A DNA stretch of 64,000 nucleotides from Phycisphaeraceae bacterium (GTDB lineage: Bacteria > Planctomycetota > Phycisphaerae > Phycisphaerales > UBA1924), in contig JAHBXE010000003.1 in NCBI GenBank assembly GCA_019636625.1, positions 1-64,000 on the forward strand. The letters run 5' to 3'. This document shows positions 4,362 through 41,390 of the stretch, piece after piece; positions within the stretch are counted from its first letter, which is position 1; the number at the start of each line of letters is the position of its first letter. A program made the translations under genes and the position numbers. The notes below the pieces were generated by a model that was not told the origin of the DNA, did no database searches, and saw nothing but the letters and a program-made list of their open reading frames with translations.

Positions 4362-4397
4362 GGGCGGGCCTCACATCGAGGCCCGCCCTTTGTTTTT
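4362..4397 (+). terminator. Intrinsic terminator
   Basis: A perfect 11-bp stem (4362-4372 with 4378-4388, loop ACATC) is followed by TTTGTTTTT, about 28 bp after the stop of the second dockerin gene. It separates that gene from sat. Confidence 0.85.
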
Positions 4398-11699: not shown

Positions 11700-12767
11700 C
11701 TATTCACACCCTTCTGCGAACCGGTTCAAGAAACACTGGAAGTCGTTGGCCGTCAGGCTCGGCGTGCCCGTGGAGCCGTCACAGTTCGCGTAGCTCTCGC
11801 CGGCGGCGAACTTGTTGAGGAAACACTGGAAGTCGTTGGCGGTCAGAAGGGAGCCGGTGGTGCTGTTGTCGCAGTTGGCGTAGCAGGGTTGGATGGCGTA
11901 GCCAAACTCCGGTCCCATTGAAACATACGAGAACCGACCGCTCGGAACGTTGAACACGCTCGGGTGATGCGGCCCCCATACCACGATAGCACCGTCGTCC
12001 CGGATCGCTCCAAAGTAACCGCTTGAACTTTGACTGAGTTGAGTGAATCTCCCCGGGGGCGCAGGATAGTTCTGTGCGTTGCATCCGCCAAACGTGACGG
12101 CTGTACCATCCATTCTGAGGGCCGCGGATGGACAGATGAAGTGAACCGTCATGAACTCGCCCGGGATCACCGGAAGCGGTGGCCCCCATGTGACCAGAGT
12201 TCCATCCGACCGGATGGCACCAATGGCACCACCGCCACCGACGTGGACTGAGCGATACGACCCAGCAGGAGCGGGGTTCTGAGTTCCCCAGACATGCACT
12301 GTTCCATCAGCACGCACTCCGGCGCTGAGCCGGTACCCCGCGGAGATCTGAACGAACGTTCCGGGAGGCGTGGTCCCTTCTCCGAAGAGGCTGAGTCCCC
12401 ATGAGACTGCCACACCGTCCGACCGGAGCGCCACACTGTGGTCCAGGCCGCAGGCGATCTGAGTAAATGTGCCGGGTTGCGGCGTTGACTGGCCCGAGAA
12501 GTTCGCACCCCAGCCCGCCATCGTGCCGTCTGCACGGAGGGCAAGTCCGTGGGCACTTCCTGTTGCGATCTTTGAGTACACGCCGGGCGGCGGCGCCATG
12601 TTGGCAGGGGCCGCCTGCGTGTTGCCCCACCAAATGATGCGGCCGGGCGCACCAACTTCCTGAGCGTTCGCAACGGCTGACACGACGAACAAAGCCGCCG
12701 GTCCTGCGTGGAAACAGGACCGGCGGAACAGAACGTTAGTCCATGATGATGATGACATTGTGAGCAT
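11700..12767 (-). CDS. Secreted RCC1-like beta-propeller protein with GC-type dockerin
   Basis: A 355-residue exported protein. The signal peptide carries an Arg pair, the hydrophobic stretch AALFVVSAVA and an ANAQ cleavage site. The body has RCC1-type repeats (ALRADGTMAGWG, ALRSDGVAVSWG, VRADGTVHVWG, IRSDGTLVTWG), which fold as a beta-propeller. The last 65 residues are two dockerin units (NCDNSTTGSLLTANDFQCF, NCDGSTGTPSLTANDFQCF). The ATG at 12767 overlaps the 3' end of the upstream propeller gene by 32 bp; an ATG at 12758 is also possible, and neither has a strong ribosome binding site. A 12-bp hairpin lies inside the signal-peptide codons. Ligand unknown. Confidence 0.8.
   Translation of the reverse strand: MLTMSSSSWTNVLFRRSCFHAGPAALFVVSAVANAQEVGAPGRIIWWGNTQAAPANMAPPPGVYSKIATGSAHGLALRADGTMAGWGANFSGQSTPQPGTFTQIACGLDHSVALRSDGVAVSWGLSLFGEGTTPPGTFVQISAGYRLSAGVRADGTVHVWGTQNPAPAGSYRSVHVGGGGAIGAIRSDGTLVTWGPPLPVIPGEFMTVHFICPSAALRMDGTAVTFGGCNAQNYPAPPGRFTQLSQSSSGYFGAIRDDGAIVVWGPHHPSVFNVPSGRFSYVSMGPEFGYAIQPCYANCDNSTTGSLLTANDFQCFLNKFAAGESYANCDGSTGTPSLTANDFQCFLNRFAEGCE
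12695..12726 (-). terminator. Terminator-like hairpin overlapping the start of the downstream gene
   Basis: The arms 12695-12706 and 12715-12726 pair perfectly over 12 bp around an 8-nt loop. On the minus strand it begins 10 nt after the stop of the dockerin-less propeller gene and is followed by CTTTGTT, like the terminators of the other dockerin genes. It also lies within the first codons of the next gene, so it could act as an attenuator between the two. Confidence 0.6.
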
Positions 12768-13772
12768 TGCTGTGACCCGTTCCGATGGAAAGGACTGTTG
12801 CCTCACTTAGAAAACTCGGGACTGTATTTGGATAGTCGAACACTACGGTTCCACCTCCAAGAGCGCACGGCCCACCCCATGCCACAACTCGCCCTTGTGT
12901 TGTTCGACCAAGCGCATGGTGGTATCCGGCGTCGACCGATGCCGGGGACGTCTCATCGTCGGGCTGGAAAGTGCTGGGCGGAGCCATCGTGTTCTGCTGC
13001 GCTGGATTGCAGCCGGTACACCCCCACCACTCAACCGATCGATCCGAGCGAATGGCGTAGCTTGTGTAGTGCCCCGCGCCGATTGCAATGAAGTGTGTTT
13101 CTCCTGGGAACGACGGAAGTACCCCCTGGGTCGTGCAAGACTGGTAGTTCACCGCACCCCAAACGCGTACGGAGCCGTTCGCCTTGAGGCCGATCCCGTG
13201 ATGTCCACCCGCGTCGATTGCCACGTAGGGACTGAACCCTGGCGCGTTGGCATCGTTGTCCGGAATCAGGTGTTGCTGCTCCCAGTTGCGCCCCCAATGC
13301 GCGATCGTCCCGTTTGATCGGAGTGCAAGGCTGAACGCTTCACCCGCAGCGATTGCGGTGTAGGTATGCTCGCCGGTGTCGCCCTGAGTTCCTTGCCCTA
13401 AGTCCCCGCCGGCGTCGGGATCTCCGCCTCCCCACGCATAGACGTTACCAACCGCATCGAGAGCGAGACCGTGGTCATACCCCGCGGATACGTCCACAAA
13501 TATGTTGCCGGACGGAACGTCACCGCGCCCGTGGTACGTTGAACCCCAGTGAATGATCTGTCCTTGAGCGTTGATCCCCAAAGTGAATCTATGTCCCGCC
13601 GAAACTTTGACAAACTTATGGCCCGCCGGTGGCGTGCATTCACCTGCAAAATCCCAACCCCAACAGATCGCGGTCCCGGCGGGTCGTGCCGCACTACTCG
13701 AAGCGCACATCAGCACCGCGCCAACCAACGCCCCCCCCCCCCAAACAATCTGCGAGCAAAGGACTTGAACAT
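12736..13772 (-). CDS. Secreted RCC1-like propeller protein, signal peptide out of frame at a poly-G run
   Basis: The mature part, about 320 residues, is made of RCC1-type repeats (GTAICWGWDFAGEC, INAQGQIIHWG, LDAVGNVYAWGGG, LRSNGTIAHWG, IRSDRSVEWWG) and ends in IIIMD without a dockerin. As assembled the frame is open only from a TTG at 13728. An ATG at 13772, with a GGAGA site upstream, encodes MFKSFARRLFGGGG and then runs out of frame at 12 consecutive G (13731-13742). With 13 G it would continue into ALVGAVLMCASSSAARPAG, giving a complete signal peptide. So the gene is either phase-variable, wrongly assembled by one base, or degraded. The overlapping next gene encodes a dockerin-bearing relative. 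Confidence 0.75.
13731..13742 (-). repeat. Poly-G run of 12 inside a signal-peptide coding region
   Basis: Twelve C on the plus strand read as twelve G in the gene. The run encodes the glycines after RRLF and is one G short of keeping the signal peptide in frame with the mature protein. Such runs are hotspots for slipped-strand change in cells and for length errors in sequencing. Confidence 0.8.
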
Positions 13773-38089: not shown

Positions 38090-38099
38090 CCCCCCCCCC
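38090..38099 (-). repeat. Poly-G run of 10 at a ribosome binding site
   Basis: Ten C on the plus strand are ten G at positions -8 to -17 of the dehydrogenase start codon. The run continues into AG to form GGGAG, so changes in run length would alter the sequence around the Shine-Dalgarno site but not the protein. Confidence 0.7.
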
Positions 38100-38322: not shown

Positions 38323-39669
38323 TTATCGCCCGCACCCCTGCGCGTACTTGGCCAGGAAGCACTGGAAGTCCGCGGCGTTGATCACGCTGTCCACGTTGCA
38401 GTTCGCGTACGGGTCCCGCGAGGCGTACCGGTTGATGAAACACATGAAGTCGTTGGCGGTCAGGGTCGGCGACACGCTGGACCCATCGCAGTTCACGTAG
38501 CAGTTCGGGCACCCCACCCACCGCGCAAGATCGGGCGATGTCCCGCCGCCCACGTTGACGAAAGAGCCGCCGATGAACAGCGACCGGCGGCCGTCCGGCT
38601 CATGGAGCACGGCCATCTGTTCCACATACGCCCCGCTCCCCCACCCCGGGCTTGACCACTGGGTCCCGTTCCACCGCGCGATGTTGCGCACCGGCACACC
38701 CCCGGCCAGCGAGAACGCGCCACCGAAGTAGATCGCCGGGCCTGTGCCGTCGTCGAAGACTTCCATGGATAGCACGCCGATGAATCCGCTCGGGTTGCTC
38801 AAACCGCCGCCCACGCTCGACCAAGTTGTGCCGTTCCAGCGCGCGATGCACTCCGGCCACAGGCCCGGGCCGGAGCCCCAGCCCATGATGAGGTAGATGG
38901 CCGGCCCCGAACCATCGTCGAACACTTTCATCGGGCCGCCGCGCCGTCCGTACAACTCCGTACCTACCGCCGTCCACATCCCGTTGCGGTACATGGCGAA
39001 GCCGGGCGCGGGAATGCCGTTGATGTGGTGGAAGTCTCCAGTCGCATAGAGCCCCGGGCCTGAACCGTCGTCGTAGACACACAGGGAAGGGGCAAACAGA
39101 CCATCGGTACGCGCGATGACCTCCCACTGCGATCCGCGCCAGATGAGAATCTTGGCGTTCTGGTCGCCAACGGCGGGCGCATGGCCGTAGGTCTTCGTTC
39201 CATCCCCGAGGTCCGCCGACAACACCGGGCGTTCGGTGTTGTTGCAGAACGCGGGCGAAGTCGGTACCCAACTCTCACCGGTCCATTCGCACATGCTGAG
39301 GAGAGACACAGGGGAGCCTGGGTCCAGGCGGGTGGCGAACAGCGATGGCTGACCAGTCAAATTCAAGACCCGGAGTTCTCGGGCGCGGTCTCCCAGACCG
39401 ACACTGATGTTCTCCCACACGCCTCGTCTCCACCGCCACGCCGGTGGGACGCCGTTGCCCGAGGGAGATACGACGTAAACAGCCACTCCGAATCCATCGT
39501 CAAATGCCGCCATGTCGCTGGGCGTCATGAGCGGTGCCAAGCTGCCGATAGAGGCACGTTCCCAGTACGGCTGGCAGAATTGGGCACAGAGCTGGCGATG
39601 ACCCCAAAGTATGGCAAATGCCGTCAGGGCGCCGGTCCACAACTTGTCACGCCGCCTTGTACTCGCCAT
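38323..39669 (-). CDS. Secreted propeller-like protein with GC-type dockerin
   Basis: A 448-residue exported protein; signal peptide with RRR n-region and cleavage near LCAQ. The body is a repeat of about 45 residues built on VFDDGSGPAIY...G, IARWNGTxWSSxGxG, seen from about residue 50 to 375, which suggests a beta-propeller. The C terminus has two dockerin units (NCDGSSVSPTLTANDFMCFIN, NCNVDSVINAADFQCFLAK) ending GCGR. It lies downstream of a dockerin-less propeller gene with a strong hairpin in the 84-bp gap. Ligand and partner unknown. Confidence 0.83.
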   Translation of the reverse strand: MASTRRRDKLWTGALTAFAILWGHRQLCAQFCQPYWERASIGSLAPLMTPSDMAAFDDGFGVAVYVVSPSGNGVPPAWRWRRGVWENISVGLGDRARELRVLNLTGQPSLFATRLDPGSPVSLLSMCEWTGESWVPTSPAFCNNTERPVLSADLGDGTKTYGHAPAVGDQNAKILIWRGSQWEVIARTDGLFAPSLCVYDDGSGPGLYATGDFHHINGIPAPGFAMYRNGMWTAVGTELYGRRGGPMKVFDDGSGPAIYLIMGWGSGPGLWPECIARWNGTTWSSVGGGLSNPSGFIGVLSMEVFDDGTGPAIYFGGAFSLAGGVPVRNIARWNGTQWSSPGWGSGAYVEQMAVLHEPDGRRSLFIGGSFVNVGGGTSPDLARWVGCPNCYVNCDGSSVSPTLTANDFMCFINRYASRDPYANCNVDSVINAADFQCFLAKYAQGCGR

Positions 39670-39700
39670 CCTCAGTTTCCTCGTCGCTCTGACAGGCGGG

Positions 39701-39725
39701 GTGGGCGCCGGAAGCCGGCGCCCAC
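39701..39725 (-). terminator. Strong hairpin between the two propeller genes
   Basis: A perfect 11-bp GC-rich stem (39701-39711 with 39715-39725) around a 3-nt loop, 28 nt downstream of the stop of the dockerin-less propeller gene and 31 nt before the next start. There is no T tract on the minus strand, so it may be an mRNA stability or attenuation element instead of a plain terminator. It matches in position the hairpin at 12695-12726. Confidence 0.5.
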
Positions 39726-39753
39726 CTCGCGACCAACGGACGCCAGGGTTCTG

Positions 39754-41390
39754 TCAAGGAGTAGTGTCGTTATACTTGTGCGAGTAGAAGTCATCGCCAG
39801 TGTCGAAGGAGTACGACGTTCCGACAACCACAACCTTTCGCTGGGTCGCGGGTTGAAGCAGGAACATGGCAGCGGGCTCGTCATCGCCGATTGAACCCGC
39901 GAAATCCTTGCGAATAGTGTTTGCGATTGGATAGGGCGAACCCTCCAAGTCAATCGACTTGTACATCAACGTCCGCCAATCCTTGTTCCCGGACGCATTG
40001 GTCACAAACCCCGCCACGTACACCCGCCAGTCCGCAAGGTCCGCTCCCGGTCGCATCACCACCGCCTTCCCGATCGCAAAGGGCGGATCGGCGGGCTCCT
40101 CGCTCTCCACCGCGTACCACCGCAGGTCCGGTGCGTTTGAGCCGATCCCCGAGTACAGCAACGTCAGCATGTCCGTCCGCCCCTGGCCCGCGGGCCGCTC
40201 GACGTACCCCGTGACGGCGATCATCGCCGGGTCCGTCGGCCCGGACTTCACAACCGACATCGCGTTCAGGACACACTCCCGGCTTGTCCCGCCGGGCAGA
40301 GAGAACAGCCGCAGCCAATCGCCGCCGGGATTGCCGGAGAGGTCCATCCGCATCACCATCGCTTTGCCCGCGCCCGAGCCCCCCTGCCAGTGCGTGCCGG
40401 CCACGTACAGCCCGAGTCCGTCCACTTCCAGGTCCATGGCGCTCGCCCTCACCCGCGCTCCGTTGGCCGGCGAGTAGGTCGCATCACCCAGATGCGCCGC
40501 GTTGGAGATCTTCGTCACTCGGCCACGGATCTTCCATTGTCCCGTTGCCGGGTTGTGGAACGAACCCGCGATGAACAGGCAATCCCCGTACACTCCCGCT
40601 TGAGCGATGCGCACGCCCACGGGCTCGCCGGTGAAACCCGGTTCCGTCAAGCGAAGCGTGTGCGGCGGGATCGCCATTTCCCCGGTCATTCGATCAAGCA
40701 CGAGCGGCTGAATCGAGAAGGTTCCGTCCGTGTTCTGCGATATTCCCGTCACGACAACGTACGCGGCGTTCGCGTCGATATGCGTGGCCTCGTCGACCAT
40801 GGGCAGAATCGTGTCATCCGGCTGGTAGTCGAACTCCTTGACCCAGATGGGACCCTCCACACGGTTCGGCGACCACGGCACTTTCCGTCTGAGGTCCTTG
40901 GCATACCCCAGAATGAAGTAGTTCCGGTTGGTGAGCGACCCGGGCTTGCTCCCGCAGACGAACACCGCGGGCTCATCGTTGTCAATCGGCTGGGCCGTCT
41001 CTATGCACTTGATCGCGAAGGGAATGTGCGGTCCCCGCCCTGTGGTCACATCAAACCACGTGGCCTGGTACGGCAACATGTCGCCGTCGATGCACTCCGT
41101 CGATGGATTGTTCGAACTGAGGTACGTGGTGATCTGGACGAACACCTCATCGGCGTACGGATTGGTAGGCCCCAGAACGTACACGATGTCGTCCCCCAAT
41201 CCGTTGTTGTACCCGCTCACGCCGACATCCACGGCTCGATCGGGCTTGGGCACAAACGCTCCCGTCCACCGCCGGCCCTCCGGTAACCAGTTCTCCACCA
41301 GTTGAGCCTGGGCTGGACGCTCAACACCCGAACCCCCCCCCCGAACAACATGGCGACAGTCGCCGCTTTCACAAACCATTTCCGTTTCAT
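39754..41390 (-). CDS. Secreted beta-propeller protein, signal peptide out of frame at a poly-G run
   Basis: The mature part, about 525 residues from QAQLVENWLPE, has repeats of the SBBP/delta-60 kind (LYVAGTHWQGGSGAG, IAVTGYVERPAG, VYVAGFVTNASGNKDWRTLMYK, VVVVGTSYSFDTGDDFYSHKYN) and no dockerin. As assembled the mature frame stays open upstream only into an implausible Cys/His-rich leader from 41547. An ATG at 41390 in another frame encodes MKRKWFVKAATVAMLFGGG, a good signal peptide start, and then leaves the frame at 10 consecutive G. With 11 G it would run into GSGVERPAQAQ and cleave at AQA-Q. The same design is seen at 12736-13772. Confidence 0.75.
41333..41342 (-). repeat. Poly-G run of 10 inside a signal-peptide coding region
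   Basis: Ten C on the plus strand, ten G in the gene, directly after codons for AMLF. One more G (or two fewer) joins the signal peptide to the mature propeller frame. Confidence 0.8.

Follow-up and report, generated by a model that had tools for sequence, protein, structure and literature searches.

A recurrent pair of genes for secreted proteins, the first mostly frameshifted at a simple repeat within its signal-peptide codons and the second encoding a protein with a GC-type dockerin, was found twice in the window (the whole stretch of 64,000 nucleotides that was analysed, with which contig C23 opens in a 3.7 Mb genome of 41 contigs), at further loci of the same genome and in a Phycisphaerae genome of another genus. 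The layout is the same throughout, the position of the repeat is conserved in the two genera and the loci differ in their frame state. The arrangement seems to be genuine and to represent a hitherto unreported means of cell-surface variation, and each locus is quite probably a phase-variable surface-protein operon that is switched by slipped-strand changes in repeat length.

Two gene pairs in the window

In the first pair, gene A (12736..13772, minus strand) encodes a secreted RCC1-like protein without a dockerin. Its reading frame starts with an ATG at position 13772 (MFKSFARRLF) and then runs into a G12 tract (13731..13742, minus strand) within the signal-peptide codons, where it is frameshifted: the assembled frame reaches a stop after about 20 residues, and the body of 330 amino acids (12736-13728) lies in another frame. 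Tracts of 7, 10 or 13 G would be ON, so that the gene is OFF as assembled. The body was identified as RCC1 by PF13540 (E=2e-28) and PF25390 (E=2e-43), no dockerin domain was found in it, and it has four strong paralogues elsewhere in the genome, each with a tract just 5' of the mature part. Directly 3' of gene A follows gene B (11700..~12767, minus strand), which starts with an ATG at 12767 or 12758, overlapping the end of gene A, and encodes an RCC1-like protein with a C-terminal GC-type dockerin (11706..11858, minus strand; NF041540, 35.5 bits with a cut-off of 29). Both genes score above the curated cut-off of PF13540 for RCC1 repeats. These family matches and the off-frame G12 tract bear out the first-pass annotation, which had described an out-of-frame RCC1-like gene followed by a dockerin-bearing one.

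In the second pair, gene X (also A'; 39754..41390, minus strand) encodes a secreted repeat protein without a dockerin, which starts with an ATG at position 41390 and is frameshifted at a G10 tract (41333..41342, minus strand) within the signal-peptide codons, the body occupying 39754-41331; tract lengths of 5, 8 or 11 would be ON, and this gene is also OFF as assembled. Gene B' (38323..39669, minus strand) encodes a secreted repeat protein with a C-terminal GC-type dockerin at 38332-38466 (NF041540, 36.1 bits, cut-off 29). For gene X no Pfam match was obtained, the cut-offs of RCC1 and other propeller families not being reached, and neither PDB sequences nor a low-confidence single-sequence structure model (pLDDT 34) gave anything usable on its fold. 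By eye, a repeat of the form VxVTGxS..D..T..Y can be recognised in X, which is suggestive only, the motif count being inconsistent between members. The first-pass annotation had read 38323-41390 as a repetition of the first locus, with a poly-G propeller, an 11-bp hairpin and a dockerin propeller. The order of a poly-G gene, an intergenic hairpin and a dockerin gene holds, but the stem measures 12 bp, and the propeller is unproven for X since this gene has neither homology to A nor a Pfam match. No similarity between A and X was detected by sequence comparison, and what B and B' have in common is chiefly the dockerin, indicating that one layout is used by two unrelated families. Beside this locus, a further G10 run (38090-38099, minus strand) lies a few bases 5' of the ATG of another gene (MRAIRFDGARAVV...), in the ribosome-binding region, and is a possible further length-sensitive control site.

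Copies of the pair in this genome

Five A and six X loci with a poly-G tract in the signal-peptide region are present in this genome, one of each being situated at a contig end, and in 11/11 of them a dockerin gene is directly next. The A loci with a tract in or abutting the signal-peptide codons lie on C23, C3, C21 and C34, the fifth being split between the left end of C34 and the start of C7; the corresponding X loci lie on C23, C13 (twice), C34 and C41. The sixth X locus, at the start of C14, has the tract and, after it, a mature N-terminus. A tract of at least 9 G occupies the same place in the signal peptide in 5/5 A bodies and in 5/5 complete X genes, and a seventh X relative (C7:78086) carries an internal deletion and only a G6 run. 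The dockerins of these pairs belong to a large set, as about 147 matches to NF041540 were found in this genome.

The split A locus is broken at its tract, and the two contig ends disagree there by several bases. The contig ends of C1, C7, C9, C12-C16, C18, C21, C22, C25, C34 and C41 often lie in or near long runs of G or C (up to G65), and these assembly breaks suggest that further phase-variable loci may be hidden. At the left end of C13, the sequence encodes MKLVSQFYVFVAVAMMAGW and continues with G26. On C41 (69425-69445, minus strand; L121), G12 and G8 runs are placed in frame just past the signal peptide of an open frame of about 936 residues (MKQGKKTMAVLLAALVGTAMPGWAQEGGGG...).

The pair in related genomes

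In a profile search over 163 genomes of the family, X is present only in this genome, in G020 (Phycisphaerae MAG-56, JAEUIZ01, from another genus) and in G093, whose single X gene is truncated at the start of its contig and likewise has a dockerin gene next to it on the downstream side. Clear A genes are present only in this genome and in G020; the two further matches to A beyond G020 are not A loci. In G020, thirteen repeat-bearing loci were found. Eleven have poly-G in or near the signal peptide, namely four A genes (G8-G11), five X genes (G10-G14) and two RCC1-dockerin genes (G10-G11), and in the other two the signal peptide contains a tandem repeat of 8 nt. The latter are A genes without poly-G that carry arrays of CTCGCACT in 4.5 and 7.5 copies, both out of frame, and one copy fewer restores the signal peptide MKTSHSRTLAVSVMVAFAAIVGLGERARAQ.

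A dockerin gene is next in 13/13 repeat-bearing loci of G020 and thereby in 24/24 loci of the two genomes, by which a coincidental pairing of A or X with dockerin genes is rejected. The co-occurrence and order expected in the first-pass annotation are thus preserved in another genus, and the poly-G loci of G020 show that the tract is not peculiar to one assembly. The conserved layout is that of a switchable secreted protein followed by a dockerin protein, without the hairpin, which had been counted as part of it. Similarly, the description of the first gene as lacking a dockerin applies to A and X of this genome, but two poly-G genes of G020 bear a dockerin of their own. Moreover, a G11 tract in the signal-peptide-like start of a non-dockerin gene of G020 (C21:59972, L198) has no dockerin neighbour, the next protein ending in VGVVALAGAAALVRRRSRRGR, which renders the pairing rule imperfect across all poly-G genes. 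In two X genes of G020 (C41:61814, L220; C34:8060, L137), the frame is shifted a second time within the body, in one of them at a G7 run, reflecting perhaps decay or a second switch.

Repeat tracts, frame states and selection

The abundance of poly-G is no argument in itself: this genome contains 78 tracts of at least 9 G, with a range of 2 to 294 in ten relatives, and an origin of the tracts from GC content alone is rejected on their position and not on their total number, which is unremarkable. In a mechanical count, which misses some loci known by homology, 8/82 and 8/87 of the tracts of at least 9 G were found in strict signal-peptide context, compared to none of the C runs of that length and to 15/1088 (1.4%) and 3/836 (0.4%) of the G5 runs. 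At the A and X loci of the two genomes the place of the tract is kept while its length varies from 8 to 19 and all three frame states occur. In the poly-G and in the octamer loci alike, the repeat unit is not a multiple of three and lies within the coding sequence, so that repeat length sets the frame. That repeats of two kinds occur at a single functional position argues for slipped-strand phase variation, and the substitution of an octamer for poly-G at this position speaks most strongly against a peptide motif, an RNA element or an assembly error as the reason for the tract.

Scoring the frame of 21 poly-G loci, among them the X gene on C8 of G020 with its uncertain signal-peptide start, revealed one locus ON (an X copy), 14 with one G too many and six with one G short; both octamer loci are OFF as well. 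The 20/21 poly-G loci that are OFF exceed the two thirds expected under free random switching (p=0.004), and this excess, together with the offset shared by 14/21 loci, suggests that unbiased random switching may not be the only process at work. Candidates are a population that is mostly OFF or slippage during expression.

The second candidate corresponds to an alternative to phase variation that we consider unlikely: programmed slippage in transcription or translation would yield a fixed fraction of in-frame product whatever the DNA length, so that the proteins would be dosed and not switched. The prevalence of out-of-frame loci, most of them with one surplus G, fits this explanation, as does the observation that homopolymers of at least 8 promote transcriptional realignment (PMC3711429). 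However, neither a fixed tract nor a constant offset was found, as the offsets are spread over three states (14, 6 and 1) and the lengths over 8-19, transcriptional slippage leaves the two loci with the 8-nt repeat unexplained, and the G-tract precedents in first genes of surface operons operate by replication slippage (PMC9187656).

It is quite improbable that the assembly produced the frameshifts through errors in homopolymers and that the genes are constitutively ON. Homopolymer lengths in a metagenome assembly are consensus calls, and the frequent contig ends at poly-G, together with the disagreement between C34 and C7 at one tract, imply that long tracts are not reliably read. Against this, the tract is kept in its position across paralogues and genera; octamer arrays, which are not homopolymers, are likewise out of frame, and a long G run that persists in the signal-peptide codons of all members would constitute a mutable element even with some individual lengths misread. 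Finally, that A and X are decaying pseudogenes of dockerin proteins is hardly credible, for although most of them are out of frame, the X relative at C7:78086 combines an internal deletion with G6 and two X genes of G020 are internally frameshifted, the remaining genes retain intact bodies of 298-575 codons, one X copy is in frame and the A bodies show a dN/dS of about 0.1-0.3.

These ratios were obtained where dS is unsaturated (0.12 for the A genes of C3 and C21), and purifying selection acts on the A bodies despite the frameshift. Mismatch repair is lacking in some classic hypermutable phase-variable genera; mutS is present in this genome, a point that counts against phase variation, and a loss of mismatch repair is rejected.

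Gene junctions and hairpins

In most loci, gene B overlaps the stop of gene A or starts within about 15 nt of it. The arrangement makes a coupling of A and B at these junctions plausible, and gene B would then probably be switched together with A instead of being a constitutive partner.

Three perfect stems of at least 11 bp (loop 3-10) are present in the window, compared to a mean of 0.6 after shuffling, and two of them lie at the A/B and X/B' junctions. At the first locus, the 12-bp hairpin that had been placed between the genes is real (12695..12726, minus strand; perfect, loop of 8) and starts 9 nt after the stop of gene A, but it lies inside the signal-peptide codons of gene B; it also occurs in three paralogous loci. 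The stem of the second locus (39700..39726, minus strand; 12 bp, perfect, loop of 3) is situated in the gap between X and B'. The third stem (4362-4388, 11 bp) lies about 30 bp past the end of another dockerin gene and is perhaps a terminator. Within this genome, the A loci have a stem of 12-14 bp beginning 9 nt after the stop of A (41 nt on C7) and within the signal-peptide codons of B. Among three distinct sequences of these stems, three pairs are changed on both sides, which suggests selection on the A-locus stem, three sequences being few. Long perfect stems are found in 5/5 A loci and, in intergenic position, in 2/5 X loci of this genome and are absent from most loci of G020, and the hairpin is rejected as an obligatory part of the layout.

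Proposed mechanism

According to the proposed mechanism, which explains the loci most simply, slipped-strand mispairing in the poly-G tract, or in the octamer array of two G020 loci, would alter repeat length and thereby join or separate the two halves of the first protein's signal peptide. In the ON state a full signal peptide would be made and the propeller-like protein exported, while the OFF state would yield a peptide of about 20 residues. Since in most loci the start of the downstream gene coincides with the stop of the first gene or closely follows it, the OFF state should also depress the downstream gene, by lost translational coupling and transcriptional polarity. The GC-type dockerin of the B product would probably fix or sort this protein to the cell surface. 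With about eleven loci per cell switching independently, a combinatorial set of surface forms could result. We infer that switching is live, that B is co-switched and that the products are located at the surface; a physical binding of A to B, and phages, predators or adhesion as selective agent, are matters of speculation.

The whole picture, which we put forward tentatively as conceivable, would be a combinatorial surface system of Planctomycetota, in which about a dozen independent operons per cell, mostly OFF, each encode an exported variable propeller and a dockerin-anchored partner, B being gated by the frame of A via coupling and, in the A loci of this genome, via a conserved hairpin.

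Significance and comparison with known systems

Phase variation by simple repeats has been described chiefly in host-associated pathogens and commensals, and no report of phase variation in Planctomycetota was found in the open-access literature searched. If the interpretation as phase-variable operons is true, a multi-locus, Opa-like set in an uncultured member of the Phycisphaerae extends simple-repeat phase variation to Planctomycetota and offers an initial way into the function of the GC-type dockerin proteins, which are abundant and cohesin-orphan. The predictions of the system are concrete and can be tested with metagenome reads that are already in public archives.

Secreted planctomycete proteins carry dockerins (PMC6461901), a feature that the present loci have in common with the planctosome and the cellulosome, which are built on cohesin and dockerin. 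No match to the Pfam cohesin family PF00963 was found in this genome, which is 94% complete, and on present evidence the pairs do not form a cohesin-scaffold complex. The GC-type dockerin-anchored proteins of NF041540 share their domain with B and B'; this family is defined only as a domain, and the pairing with a phase-variable partner lies outside its definition.

In Bifidobacterium, the first gene of the pilus operons contains a G-tract that is out of frame in the reference and controls the downstream genes. The present loci resemble this sortase-pilus switch in that a surface operon opens with a poly-G gene; they differ from it in that the Bifidobacterium switch acts on sortase pili, belongs to Actinobacteria, comprises one or two loci, involves no dockerin and has a tract that the accessible part of the source does not describe as lying in a signal peptide (PMC9187656). 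A further likeness is that to the opa genes of Neisseria, where about 11 scattered paralogous loci contain CTCTT repeats in the leader-peptide codons and each of them is frame-switched (PMC3745409). However, the opa repeat is a pentamer and the opa loci are single genes for outer-membrane barrels, whereas the planctomycete loci use poly-G or an octamer and encode propeller-like proteins that are unrelated to these, every one of them accompanied in tandem by a protein with a dockerin tag.
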